Under the pieces are notes generated by a model. That model searched no databases. It was given only the letters and a program-made list of their open reading frames with translations, and was not told where the DNA came from. This document shows, in pieces, positions 4,347-16,404 of a stretch of 64,000 bases of DNA. The stretch's first letter is position 1, and every line of letters starts with the position of its first letter. The stretch is from an uncultured Acidobacteriota bacterium. Its GTDB lineage: Bacteria > Acidobacteriota > Terriglobia > Terriglobales > Acidobacteriaceae. Where the stretch lies: contig CAINND010000115.1 of the NCBI GenBank assembly GCA_903851035.1, positions 1 to 64,000 on the forward strand. Direction: 5' to 3'. The position numbers and the translations under genes are program-made.

Positions 4347-5780
4347 TTACGCCTTGAACATCCGCATCAATCCCCGCGCCGGTAAATCCGCAACCAGGTA
4401 GCGTCGCGCATGGCCTTCCGCGCGGCTCACCGCCTCGGCCGTCAAATAGCCTGCGCGCACCGCGCCCTCCATCGTCGCCGGCCAGCCCGTGTTCGTCCAG
4501 TCGCCGCTCACAAAAATGCGCGGCCACGCCGTCTCCGGTCCCGGCCTGTGCTGCTCGCTTCGTGGCGATGGAGCAAACGTCGCGTGCACTTCTTTCACCA
4601 CCGCGGCCTTCACCAGTTTCGCATCGCGCACCTTCGGGAAGAACTCCCCCAGCTCCCGCAGCGCCAGCTCGATCACCTCTTCGCGGCTCATCTCCAGCAT
4701 CTTGCGCGACGAGCTCACTACCAGCTCCAGATAACTCGGCACTTCGCCCGAAGAACTCCCTGCTCCAGCGCTCTCCTGCTTCGTCCCCAATATCTTCGAC
4801 TTCTGGAACACCCACTGGATATTTCTGTCCAGCAGCGCCACATGCTCCAGTTCGGTTACCTGCCGGTCAAACCACAGGTGGATGCCTGTAATCGGCACCG
4901 TCTTCAAGCCTCCGGCCTGGCTCTGCAAAGCCTTGCTCACTTCATCCTGCGGCAGCACCTTGCTCAGTTGATGGAACGGCACCGCGCTGATTGCATAATC
5001 AAATTTTTCTTCCACGCCGTTCACGCGCAGCAGCACGCCGTCCGGCAAACTGGTCATGCCCTCCACCGCCGTACGCAGCAAAACCCGTCCGCCGCGAGCC
5101 GTGATGTACCGTTCCGTCGCGCCGTAAATCTCGCTCAGCGGAGCCGCCGGAACGCCCATCGCGCCCGCCTCCGCCGATTTCAAGAACGCGTCGCGCAGCA
5201 CCATCCCGGCGTACTTCACGCTGCAATCTGCAAGCTCTTCATTCAGGCTGCTCACCAGCACGGGAGCCCAAAATCGCTCAATCGCCCGCTCCGTCTGCCC
5301 ATGCCGACGCAGCCAGCTCAAAAAGTTTTCGTCCGTATCCTCTGGAACTCCCGGCATCAGCGCCACCAGCGCACGGGCAATCCCCAGCTTGTCGCGCACG
5401 CTCAGCAGCCCGAACGTTGCAAAAGAAATTCCCGAATGCAGCGGTGGCGGCAGCCAGCCCGGAGCGATCACGCCCTGGCGTCCGCCCGGCTCCATAAAGC
5501 TGATGCTCTTGTACCAGCGGATTTTGTCCGCCACGCCCAGCCGCTCGTAAAATTCGCGCAGGTTGGTGCAGCAGCCCAGTAGGATGTGTTGGCAGTTGTC
5601 CACCACCTGCCCCACTCCGGGATGTTCGTAGGAACAGGCGCGTCCGCCCAGGAAGGGTTTGCGCTCGTACACCGTGACTTCGTGTCCGTCGTTGGCCAGT
5701 GCGCAGGCCGCGGCCAGCCCGGCGATGCCGCCGCCCACCACCGCAACCGTCACTCGCGCGGGCTTCTCTCCAGTAGGCAT
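4347..5780 (-). CDS. hpnE: Hydroxysqualene dehydroxylase HpnE
   Basis: The 477-residue FAD-dependent enzyme of the phytoene-desaturase/amine-oxidase superfamily carries out the last step of the HpnCDE route, reducing hydroxysqualene to squalene. The N-terminal dinucleotide-binding fold is clear: VVGGGIAGLAAACALA at about residues 13-28, then ERKPFLGGRA. Near the C-terminus FVSGDWTNTGWPATMEGAV is the usual second FAD contact of this superfamily. The ATG at 5780 lies five bases after the hpnD stop; an in-frame TTG at 5804 would overlap hpnD. It is the last gene of the minus-strand operon. Confidence 0.93.
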   Translation of the reverse strand: MPTGEKPARVTVAVVGGGIAGLAAACALANDGHEVTVYERKPFLGGRACSYEHPGVGQVVDNCQHILLGCCTNLREFYERLGVADKIRWYKSISFMEPGGRQGVIAPGWLPPPLHSGISFATFGLLSVRDKLGIARALVALMPGVPEDTDENFLSWLRRHGQTERAIERFWAPVLVSSLNEELADCSVKYAGMVLRDAFLKSAEAGAMGVPAAPLSEIYGATERYITARGGRVLLRTAVEGMTSLPDGVLLRVNGVEEKFDYAISAVPFHQLSKVLPQDEVSKALQSQAGGLKTVPITGIHLWFDRQVTELEHVALLDRNIQWVFQKSKILGTKQESAGAGSSSGEVPSYLELVVSSSRKMLEMSREEVIELALRELGEFFPKVRDAKLVKAAVVKEVHATFAPSPRSEQHRPGPETAWPRIFVSGDWTNTGWPATMEGAVRAGYLTAEAVSRAEGHARRYLVADLPARGLMRMFKA

Positions 5781-5785
5781 CGTGC

Positions 5786-6694
5786 TCACACCAGCCGCTT
5801 CCAAAAGCCGTGTGCCAGCACCTTCAGCTTCTCGCCCACGGTCAGCCGCACCCGCTCGGTGTACACGTCGTAGTTGCGCAGCTCAATGCGGTCCAATATC
5901 CCGCGATAAATCTCCACCATCGTCCACAGTGCCGGCTGGCTCACCTCTTCCACCATCGGCAGCAGAGCTTCAGCGCTCTTGTAATACTCGCGCGCGCGCC
6001 GTGCCTGGTGCTCCAGCAGCGGACGCAGTTTTTCCATCGGCACGCCCGAGCCCAACTCCTCCGCTGTAACGCCGTAGTGCTCCAGCTCTTCCATCGGCAC
6101 ATAGATGCGCCGCATCCCCGCGTCTTCCTTCACGTCGCGCAGGATGTTCGTCAACTGAAACGCGATGCCCAAATGCTCTGCCAGCCGCTCCGCCGCCGGG
6201 TCGCGATAGCCAAATATGCGGATGCACACCAATCCCACCACGCTCGCCACGTGATAGCAGTACGAGTACAACTCCTCGAATGTCCGGTACACCACCAGCG
6301 CGCCCGTGCCCGCCGGGTCGTCGCGCACATCCATCTCCGTGCCCGCCACAAGCTGGTCCAGCAGCTCCATGGGAATCTGGTAGCGCTGCTGCGAGTCGCT
6401 CAGCGCCATGAAAACGGGATCGTCCGTGCGTCCCACCTCCACCGCCCGGTGATAGCTCTCGATGTAGCCTTGCAGCTTTTCGTGCCGCTCCCGCGGACTC
6501 ATCCCCGGATCGTCGGCCAGGTCATCCGCGTGCCGCATGAAGGCGTACACCGCGCACAGCGCGTTGCGCTTGCGTCCCGGCAGCAGCATGAATCCGTAGT
6601 AGAAATTTTTCGCGCTCTTGCGTGCAATCTGGCGGCACACGCTGTAGGCGGTGCTCATCTGCAATGCCGCATGTTGCTTCATCGAACTGCTCAT
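5786..6694 (-). CDS. hpnD: Presqualene diphosphate synthase HpnD
   Basis: This 302-residue trans-isoprenyl-diphosphate synthase condenses two farnesyl diphosphates head-to-head into presqualene diphosphate. Both Asp-rich Mg-binding motifs are present: HADDLADD near residue 55 and NILRDVKEDAG near residue 168. The preceding KNFYYGFMLLPGRKRNA segment is typical of squalene/phytoene synthases. Its ATG overlaps the hpnC stop by four bases (ATGA), implying translational coupling, and hpnE follows directly. Confidence 0.95.
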   Translation of the reverse strand: MSSSMKQHAALQMSTAYSVCRQIARKSAKNFYYGFMLLPGRKRNALCAVYAFMRHADDLADDPGMSPRERHEKLQGYIESYHRAVEVGRTDDPVFMALSDSQQRYQIPMELLDQLVAGTEMDVRDDPAGTGALVVYRTFEELYSYCYHVASVVGLVCIRIFGYRDPAAERLAEHLGIAFQLTNILRDVKEDAGMRRIYVPMEELEHYGVTAEELGSGVPMEKLRPLLEHQARRAREYYKSAEALLPMVEEVSQPALWTMVEIYRGILDRIELRNYDVYTERVRLTVGEKLKVLAHGFWKRLV

Positions 6695-7668
6695 CCGGCA
6701 CGCCCCAATGCGAGTCTTCCGGCCAGCGCGCGCAGCGCCAGCCCGGCCTTGCTCAGCTTGCTCAGGCTGGGCCTGTTGGCCAGCACGTTGTAATCCTGCC
6801 GCTCAATGGCCGTCAGTATCGCCATCCCGCCGCGGCTGAACAGCTCCAGATCCAGCGCCAGTTGACGCTCCACCATCTTCACCAGCGGCAGTCCGCGCTC
6901 AAACCACTCGCGCGCCCGCGTCACCTCAAACTTCATCAGCTCGCGGAAATTTCCATCGAAGCGCCGCTCTGCAATCTGCTCTTCCGTCACGCCAAAACGC
7001 CGCATGTCTTCCAGCGGCAGATACACCCTGCCCTTCGGCCAGTCCACCGTCACGTCCTGCCAAAAGTTGGCAAGTTGCAGCGCCGTGCAGGTGTAGTCGC
7101 TCAACCGTTGCCGCTCCGCATCCTTATACCCGCCCAAATACAGCACCAGATGCCCCACCGGGTTCGCCGAGTTCCGGCAGTAACCCAGCACGTCCTCAAA
7201 CGTCTGGTAGCGCACAACAACCTGGTCCTGCCGGAAGGCCACCAGCAGATCGCCAAACTCATGCTTGGGTATCCCAAACTCGCGCACCGTATCAGCCAGC
7301 GCCACAAACACCGGATGCGTCGCGGGTTGTGTCTCCGCGCATTCCATCCCCGCATACATCCGGTCCAACTCCACCTGCCAGCGCTCCAGCAGCGCCAGCG
7401 CCACTTCCGTGTCGCCGCTCTCGTCGCCCAGGTCGTCGCTGATGCGGCAGTACGCGTACACGTTGAAAAAGTGTTGATGCAGATGCTTGGGCAGGAACCA
7501 CGTCGCCACCGAAAAGTTTTCGTAGTGCCCGGTTGCCAGCCGCTTGCAGTACGCACGCGCCTCGTCCATCCCGGGCGCATGCGCCGGAATGGCGTATTCC
7601 TTCGGCAGCACGGCCCATCCGCGCTCCAGCAGCGTTGCTCTCTCGTCTCGCTCGTTGGAAACTGCCAT
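6691..7668 (-). CDS. hpnC: Hydroxysqualene synthase HpnC
   Basis: HpnC converts presqualene diphosphate to hydroxysqualene. The first acidic motif reads RISDDLGDE and the second ANFWQDVTVDW. GHYENFSVATWFLPK near the N-terminus is the HpnC version of the squalene-synthase helix. The ATG at 7668 gives 325 residues, close to the family. An in-frame TTG at 7755, 13 bases after the upstream dehydrogenase, would add 29 low-complexity residues and cannot be excluded. The stop overlaps the hpnD start. Confidence 0.92.
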   Translation of the reverse strand: MAVSNERDERATLLERGWAVLPKEYAIPAHAPGMDEARAYCKRLATGHYENFSVATWFLPKHLHQHFFNVYAYCRISDDLGDESGDTEVALALLERWQVELDRMYAGMECAETQPATHPVFVALADTVREFGIPKHEFGDLLVAFRQDQVVVRYQTFEDVLGYCRNSANPVGHLVLYLGGYKDAERQRLSDYTCTALQLANFWQDVTVDWPKGRVYLPLEDMRRFGVTEEQIAERRFDGNFRELMKFEVTRAREWFERGLPLVKMVERQLALDLELFSRGGMAILTAIERQDYNVLANRPSLSKLSKAGLALRALAGRLALGRAG

Positions 7669-7768
7669 GCTCGCGTTTTTCTCGGCGCTTAAGTCAGCTA
7701 CGGCGCCGGAATCTCCGGCGCCGCGCCCGTCACTGTTGGATACGAAGGAGCTCAACTCGCCGCCTTCG

Positions 7769-8806
7769 TTAATGTCCGGGGATGATGGCGGTTTTAATTT
7801 CGCCGCCGCGGTTCAGCATCTCGCGCAGCACATTCTGCAGCTTGCTCAGCGGAGCCTCGCCCGTAATGTAGTCTGCCGCCTTGATCTTCCGCTCCGCCAC
7901 CAGCGCAAACGCCCGGCGCACCGTGTCCGGAGTGTGGTGGAAGGTCGCCTTCAGCGTGATCTCCGAATAATGCAGGCGCTCGGTGTTCAACTGCACGCGC
8001 GTGCCCTTGGCGCAGCCGCCGAACAGGTTCACCGTGCCGCCCTTGCGCACCATGTCAATCGCCCACTCCCACGCTTCGGGCCGTCCCACGGCCTCAATCA
8101 CCACATCGCTGCCGCGCCGCTCGGGAGTCATGTCGCGCACCGCCTCAATCACGTTGGCAACCTTGGGGAACTGCACAACCTTGCTCGCTCCCGCATGACG
8201 CGCCGAGTGTACCTGCTCGTCGTGCTTCACCACGGCAATCACGTCGCAGCCCATGATATGTGCCACCTGCATGAACATCAGCCCGATGGGTCCCGCGCCG
8301 ATCACGGTCACCGTCTCGCCAATCTCCACGCCCGTCTCATGCAGCCCGCGCAGCACGCAGGCCAGCGGCTCGGTCAGCGCGGCGGTCTCAAAGCTGATCT
8401 CCTTGGGAACCACCAGCATGTTGTTTTCAACAATGCGCCGTGGCACGCGGATGAACTCCGCGTACGCGCCGTTGTTGAACAGCAGGTCCTCGCAAAGGTT
8501 TTCCTGGTGCTTTTTGCAGTAGAAGCACTGCCCGCAGGGAGCGCTGTTCAGGGCCACCACGCGCTGACCCTCCCGGAAGTTCTTCACCCCCGGGCCAATC
8601 TCTTCAATCACACCGGCAAACTCGTGGCCAAACAGCGCCGGCGGCACAATCATCTTGGCGTGGTAGCCACGCCGGTACACCTTCAAGTCGGTACCGCAGG
8701 TCAGCGCCGCCTGCACGCGGATCAGGACTTCGCCCTTCTCCAGCACGGGTATCGGAACCCGTTCAATCTTCACGTCCTCTTTGCCGTAGAGGACTGCGGC
8801 TGTCAT
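7769..8806 (-). CDS. Zinc-dependent MDR alcohol/polyol dehydrogenase (hopanoid cluster, copy 1)
   Basis: This 345-residue medium-chain dehydrogenase/reductase resembles sorbitol or threonine dehydrogenases. Catalytic zinc ligands are seen in ALTCGTDLK (Cys) and FGHEFAG (His-Glu). The structural-zinc pattern CX2CX2CX7C is intact in APCGQCFYCK through NLCED. The coenzyme loop is VIGAGPIGLMF. The following strand ends AVVKHDEQ without the acidic residue typical of NAD-specific enzymes, so NADP use is possible. The ATG at 8806 is 19 bases after the second dehydrogenase; a GTG at 8818 is an alternative start. Its place between hpnG and hpnC suggests a redox step on the hopanoid side chain. Substrate unknown. 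Confidence 0.85.
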   Translation of the reverse strand: MTAAVLYGKEDVKIERVPIPVLEKGEVLIRVQAALTCGTDLKVYRRGYHAKMIVPPALFGHEFAGVIEEIGPGVKNFREGQRVVALNSAPCGQCFYCKKHQENLCEDLLFNNGAYAEFIRVPRRIVENNMLVVPKEISFETAALTEPLACVLRGLHETGVEIGETVTVIGAGPIGLMFMQVAHIMGCDVIAVVKHDEQVHSARHAGASKVVQFPKVANVIEAVRDMTPERRGSDVVIEAVGRPEAWEWAIDMVRKGGTVNLFGGCAKGTRVQLNTERLHYSEITLKATFHHTPDTVRRAFALVAERKIKAADYITGEAPLSKLQNVLREMLNRGGEIKTAIIPGH

Positions 8807-8825
8807 GTGTCCGTTCACTCTGTTG

Positions 8826-9947
8826 TCATCCTTCCCAGGTGCTGCCGGGCTGTATCGCAATCTTCATCGTATCCGGCTGCGGACGTGCGGCCAGTTCCAG
8901 CGCCGCCAGCGATTCTTCCAGCGGAAAACGGTGGCTGAACAATCCCGCCAAATCCATCTCGCCGCTGAAGACGAACCGCGCTACTTCGTCATTCAACTCT
9001 ACCGACGCGCTGTAGGAACCCAGCAGCGTCTTCTCGTCCACGCAAATCGAGGCCGGGTCAATCACCACTTCGCCTCGTACCGTCTGCGCAAACAGCAAAA
9101 CCCGGCCGCCAAAGCGCGCCGCATCCAGCGCAGGACGTATCAGCCCGCTGCCACCCACGGCCACAATCACCGCGTCGGCCCCGCGACCCTCCGTCCACTC
9201 TCTCACCGCCCGTACTACATCCACTTCGCCGGCGGCCAGCGACTCGTTCAATCCGTAACGACTACCAATTGTAAGCCGCTCCGGGAACAAATCGGAAGTG
9301 ATTACCTGCACACCCTTGCGCTGCGCCAGCCGGGCCAGCATCAGTCCAATCGGACCCTGGCCCATCACCAGCACTGTCTCATCTTTCTGCAATGCCAGGG
9401 CGTCAATCCCCTTCCAAACCGTGTTCACCGGCTCCATAAAGCTGGCCTGCTCAAAACTCACGGAATCCGGGATACGGATAACGCCCTTCTCCACAATCCA
9501 GTCCATCACCCGGATGAACTCGCTGAAGCCTCCGCCGCTGGCCTCGCCAAAGCCCGCCGTCGTGCCCACCTTCTTGTACACATCGCACTGGCTGAACACC
9601 TTGCGCTGGCAGTAGTAGCAAGTGCCGCAGGGTATGTGATGAAACACCATCACACGGTCGCCCTCGGCAAACTTTGTTACGCCTGCGCCCCGGGCCACCA
9701 CCACGCCCGCCATCTCATGCCCAAAAACCCGCGGAGCCGAGTGCGAACCCGTGCTGATCTTCTTCAAATCCGTGCCGCAAATGCCGCAGGTGTGGATACG
9801 CACCAGCAACTCGCCCGCGCCGATCTTCGGCACCGGCACCCTCTCCAGCCGCATCTGGTTCTGGCCGTAATAGATGGCGGCCAGCATCGTCTCAGGAATC
9901 CGCTCCAGCGCGCCCCGGTAAGGCAGCACTTTTGGTGGTACGCTCAT
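8826..9947 (-). CDS. Zinc-dependent MDR alcohol/polyol dehydrogenase (hopanoid cluster, copy 2)
   Basis: The 373-residue MDR enzyme is related to the next gene but clearly diverged. HTCGICGTDLKK and VFGHEMAG supply catalytic zinc ligands. IPCGTCYYCQRK with SQCDVY supplies the four structural cysteines. The nucleotide fold is VMGQGPIGLMLARLA followed by ITSDLFPERL, with an Asp at the end of the second strand, as in NAD-dependent members. The ATG at 9947 is the only sensible start. A 189-base gap separates it from hpnG, so it may have its own promoter, and the downstream gene lies only 19 bases away. Two distinct dehydrogenases side by side suggest successive or paired redox steps. The substrate cannot be read from sequence. 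Confidence 0.85.
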   Translation of the reverse strand: MSVPPKVLPYRGALERIPETMLAAIYYGQNQMRLERVPVPKIGAGELLVRIHTCGICGTDLKKISTGSHSAPRVFGHEMAGVVVARGAGVTKFAEGDRVMVFHHIPCGTCYYCQRKVFSQCDVYKKVGTTAGFGEASGGGFSEFIRVMDWIVEKGVIRIPDSVSFEQASFMEPVNTVWKGIDALALQKDETVLVMGQGPIGLMLARLAQRKGVQVITSDLFPERLTIGSRYGLNESLAAGEVDVVRAVREWTEGRGADAVIVAVGGSGLIRPALDAARFGGRVLLFAQTVRGEVVIDPASICVDEKTLLGSYSASVELNDEVARFVFSGEMDLAGLFSHRFPLEESLAALELAARPQPDTMKIAIQPGSTWEG

Positions 9948-10136: not shown

Positions 10137-10868
10137 CTACTTCGCCGGGCTGTGCTTTTTTGCAAAGGCCTTCCAGTCCGTAACTGCCTCACCCACAGCC
10201 ACTTCCAGGGCATTGGCGGCGAGCTGGCTGTTCTGTTTCAGATGTTTTACCTTCTTCCACAAATGCGGTCTTATGGCGATGTGGGCGACAAAGCGGGCGG
10301 TTGCAAAGCCTTCTGGCGTAACGAATTGCGCCAGAAAATCCATCTCCTCACCCGCGCCGTCGCTGATGGCTTTGATGGCTGCAAAATCGCATTTCGCGCC
10401 CGTCAATTCCACCGCTCCGGCCGCCGCCGAAGCCGCGCCAGCCGCTTCCATATCAACCACTTGCGCGTCATAGCGGGTGGCCGTGGTTTGCTTCAAACGG
10501 GCGCCCGCAACGCGATCCAGCGTGACCAGCGTTCCTTCGCCGCAAATGGTTGCAAACTCACGGTTTGTAACCGTTTCCAGCACGCGCGAGGGGACCACCA
10601 CATCGCCGGGCGAAAAACGACGCACGCAGGAGCCAGCAAACCCCATGGATATCAATAGTTTAGGTTGATATAGCTGAAGCAGTTTCTTGGCCGCGATATT
10701 GGCCCTTGCCGCGCCCGTGCCTGCGCAGATAAGTACCGCTTTATCAGTGTAATAGACCTTGCAGACGGCGTCGGCGACGGTGATTTTTTCGCTTTGCCAG
10801 CCGCGCACAATTCCCGCGACTTCGCGCTCGAGGGCGGCGACCAGCGCGATCTGTATCGGATGGCTCAC
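10137..10868 (-). CDS. hpnG: Hopanoid-associated nucleoside phosphorylase HpnG
   Basis: This 243-residue member of the purine nucleoside phosphorylase/MTA-SAH nucleosidase superfamily is known, in characterised hopanoid producers, to release adenine from adenosylhopane. Visible features are an IALVAALEREVAG N-terminus, GTGAARANIAAKKLL, SMGFAGSCV and the substrate-binding VVDMEAAGAA. The start is GTG at 10868, which overlaps the hpnA stop as GTGA. The 50 extra in-frame upstream residues are hpnA in another frame. The radical-SAM partner HpnH, which makes adenosylhopane, is not in this window. Confidence 0.88.
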   Translation of the reverse strand: MSHPIQIALVAALEREVAGIVRGWQSEKITVADAVCKVYYTDKAVLICAGTGAARANIAAKKLLQLYQPKLLISMGFAGSCVRRFSPGDVVVPSRVLETVTNREFATICGEGTLVTLDRVAGARLKQTTATRYDAQVVDMEAAGAASAAAGAVELTGAKCDFAAIKAISDGAGEEMDFLAQFVTPEGFATARFVAHIAIRPHLWKKVKHLKQNSQLAANALEVAVGEAVTDWKAFAKKHSPAK

Positions 10869-11896
10869 CGGGACTCCGACGTAAACTGCTGGGCCAGTGA
10901 GGGATATTGCGGCGCGTAGTCTTTTTCCACGAACCAGAAGGCGGCGCGCTCCAGGGCATCGCGCACGGGGTGATGCATGTAGCTGAGTTCGCGCTGGGCC
11001 TTGGCGGAGTCCACCCACATGAACTTTTTGCCCATCCTAACTTCTTCCACTGTCGCTCTTGGCTCACGTTTCCTCAAGCGTCCGTTGAAGTTCTCGTCGA
11101 AGTAGGCGAAGGCCATGGCGACGGCGTGCGGCACCTTGAATTTGGGTGATGGCAGGCCGGTGATTTCGCCAAGCTGGTCGAGAATCTGCTTAAGCGTCAG
11201 GTTCTCTCCCCCGAGGATGTAACGCTGGCCCCGGCGTCCCTTCTCGAAGGCTTGCAGGTGTCCGCGGGCGACGTCGTGCACGTCCACCAGATTCATGCCG
11301 GTTTCCATGTAGGCGGGAAAGTTGCCGAGGAGGAAATCCAGAATGATGCGTCCGGTGGGAGTGGGCTTGATGTCGCGCTCGCCGATGGGAGTGCTGGGAT
11401 TGACGATGACGACCTCGGCGCCCTTGGCGGCCAGCTCGACCACCTTGCGCTCGGCCAGGAACTTGCTGCGCTTGTAGTGGCCGATCATGTCGGCCTCGGC
11501 GACGGGAGTGTCTTCGTTGACCGAGCGGCGCTGGTATCCAAAGCCGAGGGTGGCCACCGAGGAGCAGTAAACGGTGCGGCGTACTCCGGCGGCGCGGGCG
11601 GCCTCGATGACGGCGACCGTGCCATCCACGTTGGCGGCGTACATGGGCGCGGGATCGGGAATCCAGAGGCGGTAGTCGGCGGCGAGGTGGAAGACGGCGT
11701 CGCAGCCTTCCATTCCCTTGCGCAGGCTGGCGGGGTCGGTGAGGTTGCCGGTGACAACTTCGGCGTTGAGGCCGACGAGGTTATCCTGATTGCTTCCCTT
11801 GCGCACCAGCAGGCGGAGCTGGGCTCCTTCCGCGGCCAACAGATGTGCCACATGACTGCCGACAAAGCCGGTTGCCCCGGTTACAAATGCCTTCAA
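10865..11896 (-). CDS. hpnA: Hopanoid-associated sugar epimerase HpnA (extended SDR)
   Basis: The 343-residue NAD-dependent epimerase/dehydratase-type SDR has the glycine motif VTGATGFVGSHVA at residues 5-17. The active-site YKRSK (YxxxK) sits near residue 145 after CSSVATLG. The HpnA family is a consistent partner of hopanoid clusters; its exact substrate is not settled. The start is TTG at 11896 because GGGAGG lies seven bases upstream and the fold begins immediately. The longer frame runs into a hairpin repeat. It is translationally coupled to hpnG. Confidence 0.88.
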   Translation of the reverse strand: MKAFVTGATGFVGSHVAHLLAAEGAQLRLLVRKGSNQDNLVGLNAEVVTGNLTDPASLRKGMEGCDAVFHLAADYRLWIPDPAPMYAANVDGTVAVIEAARAAGVRRTVYCSSVATLGFGYQRRSVNEDTPVAEADMIGHYKRSKFLAERKVVELAAKGAEVVIVNPSTPIGERDIKPTPTGRIILDFLLGNFPAYMETGMNLVDVHDVARGHLQAFEKGRRGQRYILGGENLTLKQILDQLGEITGLPSPKFKVPHAVAMAFAYFDENFNGRLRKREPRATVEEVRMGKKFMWVDSAKAQRELSYMHHPVRDALERAAFWFVEKDYAPQYPSLAQQFTSESR

Positions 11897-11918
11897 CTGC
11901 GAACCTCCCGATGCGGTT

Positions 11919-11958
11919 CCCCCACTCAAGCCAAAGGATGGCTTGAATGGGCCACCCG
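11919..11958. repeat. Type A hairpin repeat upstream of hpnA
   Basis: CCCCACTCAAGCC...GGCTTGAATGGGCCACCCG. It lies 23 bases upstream of the hpnA TTG start, thus within or before its leader. Confidence 0.75.
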
Positions 11959-12027
11959 CCAATTCTAATTTCTTCGCTGGAGAGAGGAAGAAAAAACTTC
12001 GGGGGATGGTGGGGAAAATGCGAGGTC

Positions 12028-12082: not shown

Positions 12083-12901
12083 TCACAAGAGGTCGAATGC
12101 CGTTACAATGCCCAGAAGACTCCTGCGCTTTGGTCCCTTAATGAGTAGTACCTGTTCGGAACCGAGGTGCTCCAAGGCCTGGGTAATCGTCGTCTCCTCA
12201 TCAATTATCTTGGCGCGCCTCAACTCAATCAGACCTTTGTTTCGAGCTTGCTCAAGAGTCATCGTCAGACGTGTTCCCCTAATTTTGCTGCCCCGTTCCG
12301 CCCCCAGATACTTTGCAATAGCGACATCCGAGACAACTGACCACTCGTTTCCTTGATCTTGTTCTTCGCCACTCTCAAGAACTGGCATATACGAGTAAGA
12401 GTTACCAAGCATCTGCTGTCGAATGAACGCGACAGGTTGCCATAGCTCGGCACATGCAGGATTTCGTGTCATGTAATGTGAGACCTTAGCTTCCATAATG
12501 TGGCTGAGCGCATCCTCCAAAATGATCGCAAGTTCAATCGCATGGTTTGTCAAGTGCCTAGCAAAAGCCCCTTGGTGCAGGGCGTCGTTCCGACCAACCC
12601 TTACCGATTCATACAGTTCAGAGAATGGGGTCAGGATACATCTAAACTGGTCAGGAATCATCACGGCGAGCGATGATCTTGCCGCTAGGCAATTGAGTGA
12701 TTCCGTGTATTTGCCGAGTCCATCCTGCTTTCCGGTGATGTGGCTTCCGAGTCTTTCAATAACATGAATAATCTGGTCGAATTCCTCGGCATCACCTAAA
12801 GCCTTGAGGCGTGCATCACGGAATTGACGAGCGAAGAAAACTGCTGTTTCCCGGTTGAGCGGTCTTAACTGATTCTTTTCTTTCTCTTTTTTCGCAGACA
12901 C
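12083..12901 (-). CDS. HEPN-like N-terminal domain fused to C-terminal CBS domain, function unknown
   Basis: This 272-residue soluble protein is likely to have two parts. Residues about 1-140 are helical and contain RNDALH followed by a long helix. This matches the RX4H ribonuclease motif of HEPN domains such as HepT. Residues about 140-272 look like a CBS pair, with KVSHYMTRNPACA, a middle NSYSYMPVLESG strand and the final LLIKGPKRRSLLGIVTAFDLL; CBS pairs usually bind adenine nucleotides. The GTG start at 12901 has AAAGAGG six bases upstream; a TTG at 12907 is the alternative. A 60-base sample inside it is 50% GC, against 58% in a sample of shc. It is flanked by hairpin repeats and splits shc from hpnA, suggesting insertion. 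The HEPN assignment is my inference from the motif and helices. Confidence 0.6.
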   Translation of the reverse strand: MSAKKEKEKNQLRPLNRETAVFFARQFRDARLKALGDAEEFDQIIHVIERLGSHITGKQDGLGKYTESLNCLAARSSLAVMIPDQFRCILTPFSELYESVRVGRNDALHQGAFARHLTNHAIELAIILEDALSHIMEAKVSHYMTRNPACAELWQPVAFIRQQMLGNSYSYMPVLESGEEQDQGNEWSVVSDVAIAKYLGAERGSKIRGTRLTMTLEQARNKGLIELRRAKIIDEETTITQALEHLGSEQVLLIKGPKRRSLLGIVTAFDLL

Positions 12902-13004
12902 ATTCAACCTCTTTCAGCTAACGCCAAAAACTGTTGACGTTCCTCGCAAGCAGTGTAGGCACTTTGCGTGCGCGGCCTCAAGGGTAAATTCCTATGTAAT
13001 GTAA

Positions 13005-13473: not shown

Positions 13474-15417
13474 TTACGTTTGCTGGCCGCGGGCGAACCT
13501 TGCCAGGGCCATCAGTGGGAAGTACCACGGATAGGAGTGATACTTGAGGTAGAAGACTCTTGGGAAGCCCGTGCCGGTGTAGGGCACCTCGCTCCAGCCG
13601 CCGTTTGATTGCTGGTGGTCCATAAGGTACGCGATGCCGCGCGAGAGGCTCTCCGAGCGGAAGTCGCCGCCGGCCATGAGTCCGAGGGTGGCCCAGGCGG
13701 TTTGCGATGCGGTGCTGGGGCCGGTGCCGCGCAGGTTGCTGTCGTCGTAGCTGGCGATGGTCTCTCCCCAGCCGCCGTCGGAGTTCTGCATCATGCGCAG
13801 CCACTCGGTGGCCTGCTGCACCATGGCGTCATTCTGGTCGAAGCCGATGGCCTCAAGACCGCGCAGCACGCACATGGTTCCGTAGATGTAGTTGACGCCC
13901 CAGCGGCCGAACCAGCTGCCGTCGGATTCCTGCTCGCGGCGGATGAATTCGATGGCGCGCGCGACGGGACGATCCTTGAGGGTGAGTCCGTGGGCGGCCA
14001 GGCTTTCGAGAACTCGTCCGGTGATGTCCACCGTTGCGGGGTCGAGCATGGCGTTGTGATCGGCAAAGGGGACGTACTGGAAGACCATGCGGTCGTTGTC
14101 TTTGTCGAAGCTGGCCCAGCCGCCGTTTTTGCACTGCATGGCCAGCACCCAGTCGAGTCCGCGCTGCGCGGCCTCCTCCTGGAAGCGCAGGTTGCCGGTC
14201 TCCACGTTATGCAGGGCGAGCAGAACCTGCGCGGTGTCATCCACGTCCGGATAGAACTCGTTGTTGTGCTCAAAGTACCAGCCACCGGGCTCGGCATGGG
14301 GAACCTTGACCGACCAGTCGCCCTTGTGGCGAATCTGCTTTTTCAGCATCCACTCGGCGGCCCTGGTAAGGCGAGGATCGGTGGGCGCGATGCCGCTCTC
14401 CGAAAGGGCAAACATGGAGTAAGCCGTATCCCACACGGGCGAAACGCAGGGCTGCATGCGGAAGCGGTCACCCTCCTCAATGCCGAGCTTTTCGAACTCG
14501 TCGAGAGCGCGGATGACCTGGGGATCGTCGAGCGAGTAGCCGAGGCAGCGCAAGGCGACGATGGAGTTGAGGATGGAAGGATAGATGGCGCCGAGGCCAT
14601 CGCTCATCTCCAGATGCTCCAGCATCCAACGCTCGGCCGACTTGAGAGCCACGCTGCGCAGGGGGCGGATGTGGACGCGCTCAAATGCGTGGCAGAGACG
14701 GTCGAGAACGAGAAAGAAGTTGCGCCAACTAAAGAAGTGCGAATCCCACTTGAGATGCAGCGAGCTGCCGTGACGGCCCTCGGGGAAAAGCTCGTCAATG
14801 TTCCACTCGTCGGGAATCTTTTTGAAGGGCTTTTTGGCGTAGCAGATGGAGAGCGGAATGAGGATGGCGCGCGACCAGGAACTGATCTCGTAAATATTGA
14901 ACCAGAACCAGTTGGGAAAGAGCACGATCTCCGGCGGAATGGCCGGCACGGCGTCGTAATCGTACTGGCCGAGCGCGCAGAGATAAATTTTGCTGAAGGT
15001 GTTACAGGCCGGGGCGCCGCCCAGCGAGAGAATGCGCTGGCGAGCGCGCTGCATCAGTTCTTCGTCCGGCGAGTGGCCGCACATTTTTAGCGCGAAGTAA
15101 GCCTTGACGCTGGCGCTGATGTTCGACGGGCCGCCCTGGTAGATGGGCCAGCCGCCATCGGCGTTCTGATAGTGCTGAATCTCTCGCGCACACTGCTGGA
15201 AGCGGCGCTCATCGCGCGTGCCGAGCAGGGTGTGCAGGAAGATGTAATCGGATTCGAGCGTGGTGTCGGCTTCGAGCTCGCCGCACCACCAGCCGTCTTC
15301 GTGTTGCAGACTGAAGAGGAAGCCCTGCGCCTTCGCGATGGCGCCCTTGAGGCGCTCGGCGAGCCCGGCGATTTTGCCGAAACGAATGGCGGTGGGCTGC
15401 GCTGTGCCGGATTCCAC
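13474..15417 (-). CDS. shc: Squalene-hopene cyclase
   Basis: The 647-residue class II terpene cyclase converts squalene to hopene/hopanol. The catalytic acid motif DVDDTA is at residues 391-396. QW-type repeats are seen throughout, for example QESDGSWFGRWGVNYIYGT and QNSDGGWGE in the C-terminal half and QHEDGWWCGE near residue 40. Length matches bacterial enzymes. The protein is a monotopic inner-membrane enzyme. The GTG at 15417 follows the ispH stop by three bases and has GGAG in the end of ispH, so ispH-shc are coupled. Product range cannot be deduced from sequence. Confidence 0.97.
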   Translation of the reverse strand: MESGTAQPTAIRFGKIAGLAERLKGAIAKAQGFLFSLQHEDGWWCGELEADTTLESDYIFLHTLLGTRDERRFQQCAREIQHYQNADGGWPIYQGGPSNISASVKAYFALKMCGHSPDEELMQRARQRILSLGGAPACNTFSKIYLCALGQYDYDAVPAIPPEIVLFPNWFWFNIYEISSWSRAILIPLSICYAKKPFKKIPDEWNIDELFPEGRHGSSLHLKWDSHFFSWRNFFLVLDRLCHAFERVHIRPLRSVALKSAERWMLEHLEMSDGLGAIYPSILNSIVALRCLGYSLDDPQVIRALDEFEKLGIEEGDRFRMQPCVSPVWDTAYSMFALSESGIAPTDPRLTRAAEWMLKKQIRHKGDWSVKVPHAEPGGWYFEHNNEFYPDVDDTAQVLLALHNVETGNLRFQEEAAQRGLDWVLAMQCKNGGWASFDKDNDRMVFQYVPFADHNAMLDPATVDITGRVLESLAAHGLTLKDRPVARAIEFIRREQESDGSWFGRWGVNYIYGTMCVLRGLEAIGFDQNDAMVQQATEWLRMMQNSDGGWGETIASYDDSNLRGTGPSTASQTAWATLGLMAGGDFRSESLSRGIAYLMDHQQSNGGWSEVPYTGTGFPRVFYLKYHSYPWYFPLMALARFARGQQT

Positions 15418-15420
15418 TGG

Positions 15421-16404
15421 CTACTCCACGGCCGCGACGTCGGGGGCGGCGCCGATGGCGGCGACGATCTCCGGCGGAAGCGCGAAGCGAACGTGCTCCG
15501 GCATGACCTCGACCTCGCGCACGTCACCATAACCGCGGGCGCCGAGGAATTCGATGACCTCCTGCACGAGGATCTCCGGAGCGCTGGCGCCGGCCGTGAG
15601 AGCGACGGTCTTTACGCCTTCCAGCCACGCGGGATCGATGTCCGTGCAAGTGTCAATCAGATGGCTGTTGGTGCCCAGGTTGCGCGCGACCTCCACTAGA
15701 CGATTGGAGTTGGAGCTGTTGGGCGAGCCGACGACCAGCACGAGATCGGCCTGCTCGGCCACGTTCTTGACGGCGACCTGGCGATTCTCCGTGGCGTAGC
15801 AGATATCCTGCGCGTGGGGTCCGCGGATGTTGGGAAACTTCTGCTTGAGGGCCTCGATGATGTCCTTGGCCTCGTCGAGCGAAAGCGTGGTCTGGGTGAG
15901 GTAGGCGACGCGATCGGGATCGGGGACGACGAGGTCCTTGACCTGATCGGCGCTGCTGACCACCTGCGTGACCTCGGGAGCTTCGCCCAGGGTGCCGACG
16001 ATTTCATCGTGATTGAGGTGGCCGATGAGGACGAGCGAATAGCTGCCCTTGGCAAAGCGAATAGCCTCGACGTGCACCTTGGTGACCAGCGGGCAGGTGG
16101 CGTCAATGACGCGCAACTGGCGGAGCTTGCTGGCCTCTCGCACGCTGGGGGCGACGCCATGCGCGCTGTAAATGACGCGCTCGCCGTTGGGAACCTCCTC
16201 GACATCGTCGACGAAGATGGCGCCCTTCTGCTTGAGGTCCTCGACAACGTACTTGTTGTGGACGATCTCCTTGCGGACGTAGATGGGCGGCCCGAAGGTT
16301 TCCAGGGCGATTTTAACGATGTCAATGGCGCGCACCACGCCGGCGCAGAATCCGCGCGGCTTGAGCAGGAGGAGAGTTTTTGTCTCGGTTGTCGACGTCA
16401 TCAT
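15421..16404 (-). CDS. ispH: 4-Hydroxy-3-methylbut-2-enyl diphosphate reductase IspH
   Basis: This 327-residue iron-sulfur enzyme does the final step of the MEP pathway, making IPP and DMAPP. The three conserved cysteines that hold the cluster are in KPRGFCAGV, DATCPLV and QDICYATENRQ. Substrate-binding motifs AHGVAPSVREA, GHLNHDE, TQTTLS and GSPNSSNSNRL are intact. The ATG at 16404 starts close to the first cysteine motif, as usual. Its position at the head of shc links precursor supply to hopanoid output. Confidence 0.97.
   Translation of the reverse strand: MMTSTTETKTLLLLKPRGFCAGVVRAIDIVKIALETFGPPIYVRKEIVHNKYVVEDLKQKGAIFVDDVEEVPNGERVIYSAHGVAPSVREASKLRQLRVIDATCPLVTKVHVEAIRFAKGSYSLVLIGHLNHDEIVGTLGEAPEVTQVVSSADQVKDLVVPDPDRVAYLTQTTLSLDEAKDIIEALKQKFPNIRGPHAQDICYATENRQVAVKNVAEQADLVLVVGSPNSSNSNRLVEVARNLGTNSHLIDTCTDIDPAWLEGVKTVALTAGASAPEILVQEVIEFLGARGYGDVREVEVMPEHVRFALPPEIVAAIGAAPDVAAVE

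Follow-up and report, generated by a model that had tools for sequence, protein, structure and literature searches.

Paired zinc dehydrogenases in Acidobacteriota hopanoid operons as candidates for finishing the hopanoid side chain

We analyzed a 64,000-nucleotide stretch of DNA from an uncultured Acidobacteriota bacterium (GenBank assembly GCA_903851035.1, contig CAINND010000115.1, positions 1 to 64,000), termed the window, focusing on two genes, ADH1 and ADH2, within its hopanoid operon. On the minus strand, the gene order is ispH, shc, an open reading frame (ORF) of 274 amino acids (aa), hpnA, hpnG, ADH2, ADH1, hpnC, hpnD and hpnE (Table 1). The original prediction of two intact zinc-dependent medium-chain dehydrogenases/reductases (MDRs) between hpnG and hpnC on the same strand was borne out by ORFs, domains and invariant zinc ligands. 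The ADH2 ORF spans 373 aa and that of ADH1 363 aa counted from a TTG; the ATG at 8806 is probably the true ADH1 start. Both are full-length, two-domain proteins with ADH_N and ADH_zinc_N matches over cut-off. Alignments revealed ligands invariant in 24 orthologues each, comprising C57/H77/E78/E172 and C107/C110/C113/C121 in ADH2 and C55/H79/E80/E164 and C109/C112/C115/C123 in ADH1. With these domains, the catalytic Cys, His and Glu and the four structural Cys, both proteins belong to the two-zinc MDR type.

The two enzymes differ at the end of strand beta-2. Asp at this position is typical of NAD-binding MDRs, while a basic pattern is expected to favor NADP(H). The Asp was present in 113 of 113 ADH2 sequences, and an acidic residue in none of 114 ADH1 sequences, nearly all of which carry Val-Lys-Arg/His (both counts include duplicates, where the same genome occurs in two collections). 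The claim that one MDR has the NAD-type Asp and the other lacks it therefore holds for the window and generally. ADH2 is predicted to be NAD(H)-type and ADH1, because Val-Lys-Arg/His replaces the acidic residue, NADP(H)-type. AlphaFold models (predicted local distance difference test scores of 72 and 79, from shallow alignments) matched two-zinc MDRs, among them 4cpd, 1e3j, threonine dehydrogenase, 4ej6 and sorbitol dehydrogenase. The models confirm the two-zinc MDR fold, which leaves the substrate unset.

To describe gene order, we used the best 80 loci from a scan of contigs of named genomes; every one was from Acidobacteriota. ADH2 was directly followed by ADH1 in 64 of 74 judgeable loci, with hpnG (56/66) and hpnA (52/64) upstream of ADH2 and hpnC or hpnD within 3 kb downstream (66/70). 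The order ispH-shc-(hpnH)-hpnA-hpnG-ADH2-ADH1-hpnC-hpnD-hpnE was retained in families f1, f3, f5 and f53 and also, minus hpnG in place, in f31. In a second set, comprising 247 evenly drawn Acidobacteriota genomes (the phylum draw), ADH1 and ADH2 were non-adjacent in 17 of 38 genomes. In the split operons examined, ADH2 remained beside hpnA-hpnG (loci L127, L128 and L131) and ADH1 beside hpnC-hpnD-hpnE (L148, L150-L153). Median identities to the window proteins were 76% for ADH1, 68% for ADH2, 76% for IspH, 69% for SHC, 70% for HpnH and 36% for HpnG. Since its value equals that of IspH and exceeds those of SHC and HpnH, ADH1 is, as judged from these comparisons, under strong constraint.

Co-occurrence with hpnH was strong. 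Among 40 relatives and the window's own genome, an ADH2 orthologue was found in 24 of 25 HpnH-positive and none of 16 HpnH-negative genomes, 14 of the latter belonging to the sister family f2. In the phylum draw, the corresponding numbers were 35/62 and 3/185. Orthologues there scored at least 469 bits and the next match 260, so the orthologue cut is clean. Pooled across Acidobacteriota, ADH2 occurred in 55 of 82 HpnH-positive versus 3 of 201 HpnH-negative genomes; the MDRs are thus far from equally common in genomes lacking hpn genes, the finding that was to count against the original prediction. Although genome counts are not phylogenetically independent, the pattern persisted at the family level (5/16 HpnH-positive versus 0/60 HpnH-negative families, p = 2e-4). 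Among the three HpnH-negative exceptions, shc is present in G150, and G247 reaches a completeness of 84%; both fall in a hopanoid family, leaving G257 as the only one that seems to have a genuine pair without shc and hpnH. Through hpn linkage and hpnH co-occurrence, the pair is a member of the Acidobacteriota hopanoid gene set. Given this co-occurrence, the conserved order and the retention beside hpn genes, its tie to the hopanoid operon is real and not chance; locus order together with genome- and family-level counts excludes mere chance neighbors.

Table 1. Hopanoid operon features in the window, with supporting evidence.
Feature	Position	Strand	Evidence
ADH1, zinc-dependent MDR predicted to use NADP(H)	7769..8860	-	ORF, domains, alignment; probably equivalent to ug2 (Sinninghe Damste et al. 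2017, PMC5462960)
ADH2, zinc-dependent MDR predicted to use NAD(H)	8826..9947	-	ORF, domains, alignment; likely ug1 (PMC5462960), via gene order
hpnG-type nucleosidase/phosphorylase	10137..10862	-	TIGR03468 52 bits, under cut-off 187; conserved place
hpnA, hopanoid-associated sugar epimerase-like short-chain dehydrogenase/reductase (SDR)	10865..11962	-	481 bits, cut-off 368
hpnC squalene synthase	6691..7755	-	345 bits, cut-off 250
hpnD presqualene diphosphate synthase	5786..6694	-	256 bits, slightly below cut-off 278.6
hpnE hydroxysqualene dehydroxylase	4347..5804	-	459 bits, cut-off 283
shc squalene-hopene cyclase	13474..15417	-	736 bits, cut-off 431
ispH	15421..16404	-	Profile search
274-aa ORF without clear family, between shc and hpnA	12083-12907	-	CBS-domain match, sub-threshold

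Several further features of the locus were recorded. The 274-aa ORF occupies the slot held by hpnH and ug3 in many relatives; hpnH itself lies outside the window operon, on contig C56 of the same genome, with a small downstream gene placed like ug3. A second squalene-hopene cyclase-like gene is located outside the operon on contig C99 of the window's genome (C99:81979-83835, 616 bits, over cut-off). HpnG evolves unusually fast in this operon, with its median identity of 36% to neighbors' HpnG compared to 54-76% for the adjacent genes. In genome G011 (L035), rated 100% complete, ispH-shc-hpnH-ug3 are kept, but hpnA, hpnG, ADH2, ADH1, hpnC and hpnD all went undetected; as this may reflect either true loss of the block or a gap in the assembly, G011 was left out of the evidence.

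The enzyme converting ribosylhopane to bacteriohopanetetrol (BHT) is not established according to a 2025 paper (PMC12583986), in agreement with the original prediction that this step lacks a firm assignment in most lineages. A literature search, with most subscription papers outside its coverage, found no paper assigning the dehydrogenases studied here. Because both genes are conserved in the hopanoid operons of many Acidobacteriota, we consider the pair good candidates for the unassigned side-chain finishing step in this phylum. ADH2 and ADH1 would follow HpnH and HpnG and modify the side chain derived from ribose, with ADH1 reducing the open-chain aldehyde of ribosylhopane to BHT and ADH2 targeting a hydroxyl or ketone group in this chain. 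Substrate, direction and division of labor are inferred; ADH1 is favored as the reductase because of its NADP(H) motif. A two-enzyme redox module recruited into part of the Acidobacteriota hopanoid operons, finishing the side chain with ADH1 as the likelier reductase, is a tentative proposal that we rate somewhat below an even chance. Such a lineage-specific side-chain module is nonetheless the best single reading, held with modest confidence.

The recruitment part of this proposal derives from diverged relatives of the pair that lie outside hpn operons. In a tree of 58 MDRs with some weak deep branches, the ADH1-like and ADH2-like halves mirror one another, and hpn-operon pairs cluster together within each half. 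The pair was probably an older two-enzyme unit later recruited into the hopanoid operon. As a separate observation, L039 (9243-10289, genome G169) encodes a close ADH1 homologue (490 bits) with no adjacent ADH2, in a genome without shc and hpnH.

A number of observations weigh against a side-chain role of the pair, or limit its reach. Diverged tandem pairs occur away from hpn genes in families f48, f50, f37, f69, f63, f35 and f42, several of them in genomes without shc and hpnH. The phylum draw contains 27 HpnH-positive Acidobacteriota genomes without an ADH2 orthologue. Clusters of shc-hpnH-hpnA-hpnG with no MDR alongside characterize f50, f28, f44, f51, f59, f69 and f76; no conserved substitute reductase adjoining hpnG was seen in pair-less Acidobacteriota hopanoid clusters. 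In f31, the pair adjoins hpnA without hpnG (L052 10464-12643, L053 1827-3967 and L054 9535-11713). Genomes of f35, whose Chloracidobacterium-like identity is inferred, have hpnH and no ADH2 orthologue, and according to PMC5462960, C. thermophilum reportedly produces BHT and BHT cyclitol ether. Outside the phylum, we inspected 15 kb on each side of hpnH in five named organisms. No ADH relative was present in this range in Burkholderia cenocepacia, Streptomyces fungicidicus, Azospirillum brasilense or Cupriavidus metallidurans, and the Roseomonas marmotae cluster contained one weak MDR only; within these limits, the pair is not part of a general hopanoid gene set. Pair-less clusters in Acidobacteriota families and other phyla, together with the Chloracidobacterium-like f35, therefore rule out the pair as one universal BHT reductase. 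The earlier idea of a missing reductase thus stands as regards hopanoid operon membership, supported by co-occurrence and order, but fails as a general reductase. As a side observation on f31, nucleosidases elsewhere in these genomes match profiles of HpnG and of methylthioadenosine/S-adenosylhomocysteine (MTA/SAH) or futalosine nucleosidases about equally.

Restriction of the pair to some families also fits an alternative that we regard as unlikely, although it is the most probable of the rivals, in which BHT formation falls to HpnA or to an unlinked reductase and the ADH pair performs lineage-specific tailoring, later modifying a side-chain hydroxyl. HpnA is far more universal than the pair, exceeding its cut-off in nearly all hpnH-positive Acidobacteriota examined, families without the pair included, and has been suggested for the ribosylhopane step in PMC5462960. 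However, no unusual hopanoid is known that matches the distribution of the pair. We give less credence to general-purpose dehydrogenases that are carried in the operon and have no hopanoid function. The diverged tandem pairs outside hpn operons, whose gene contexts share no neighbor or common theme, are in line with this idea, but hpnH co-occurrence and the persistence with hpn genes in split operons argue against it.

An upstream role, with alcohols or aldehydes of the isoprenoid or squalene pathway as substrates in place of the side chain, seems improbable. As such a role would suggest, hpnC lies downstream of ADH1 in most loci, and ADH1 remains beside hpnC-hpnD-hpnE after operon splits; however, ADH2 tracks hpnA-hpnG, and work cited in PMC5462960 indicates that squalene needs only HpnC, HpnD and HpnE. 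Moreover, the G176 operon (L154 5420-11845) has lost hpnC but kept ADH2, ADH1, hpnD and hpnE, which speaks against a purely squalene-related function and rejects ADH1 as an obligate squalene-pathway partner. Least probable among the rivals is opposed action on one carbon, with NAD-linked oxidation by ADH2 and NADPH-linked reduction by ADH1 inverting a hydroxyl to yield a BHT stereoisomer: the opposite, fixed cofactor motifs and the mirrored trees agree with it, but we found no stereoisomer data for these bacteria, and the genes are apart in 17 of the 38 genomes.

A combined scenario is similarly doubtful, in which a recruited, opposed pair finishes the C35 side chain in Acidobacteriota and possibly sets the configuration of one hydroxyl, giving a distinct BHT isomer; if true, a lipid pathway of geological importance would have a branch that has gone unrecognized. 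Returning to the side-chain redox module, if the pair converts ribosylhopane to BHT, this step would lack one universal enzyme. Hopane biomarkers derive from hopanoids, and a conserved, cofactor-defined pair in a major soil phylum offers two named candidate genes.

The gene neighborhood is partly known already. Sinninghe Damste et al. 2017 (PMC5462960) named the same neighboring genes ug1 and ug2 without assigning a function. There, ug2 encodes a Zn-binding alcohol dehydrogenase (about 350 aa) and precedes hpnC, as does ADH1, and ug1 comes after hpnA-hpnG in Acidobacteria hopanoid clusters, as does ADH2, an equivalence resting on gene order. Whereas ug2 was loosely tied to squalene genes in that paper, our data add the paralogy of the pair, its opposite cofactor motifs and a quantified linkage. 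HpnA, the other proposed enzyme from ribosylhopane to BHT, is encoded in the same operon but is an SDR, sequence-unrelated to the pair and of much wider distribution. The best NCBIfam profiles for both proteins were L-threonine 3-dehydrogenase (TIGR00692) and scyllo-inosose 3-dehydrogenase IolM (NF041097). Both identities were rejected, with 169.1 and 149.4 bits versus a cut-off of 458.35 for the former and 161.0 and 155.9 bits versus a cut-off of 450 for the latter. Among relatives of solved structure, polyol/ketose and threonine dehydrogenases are the closest. With the polyol dehydrogenase group, represented by ketose reductase 1e3j and sorbitol dehydrogenase 1pl6, the pair shares the fold, two zinc sites and Cys-His-Glu catalytic ligands, but identity over the models is only about 26-27%; 1e3j is NADP(H)-dependent (PMC9895041), matching the prediction for ADH1.
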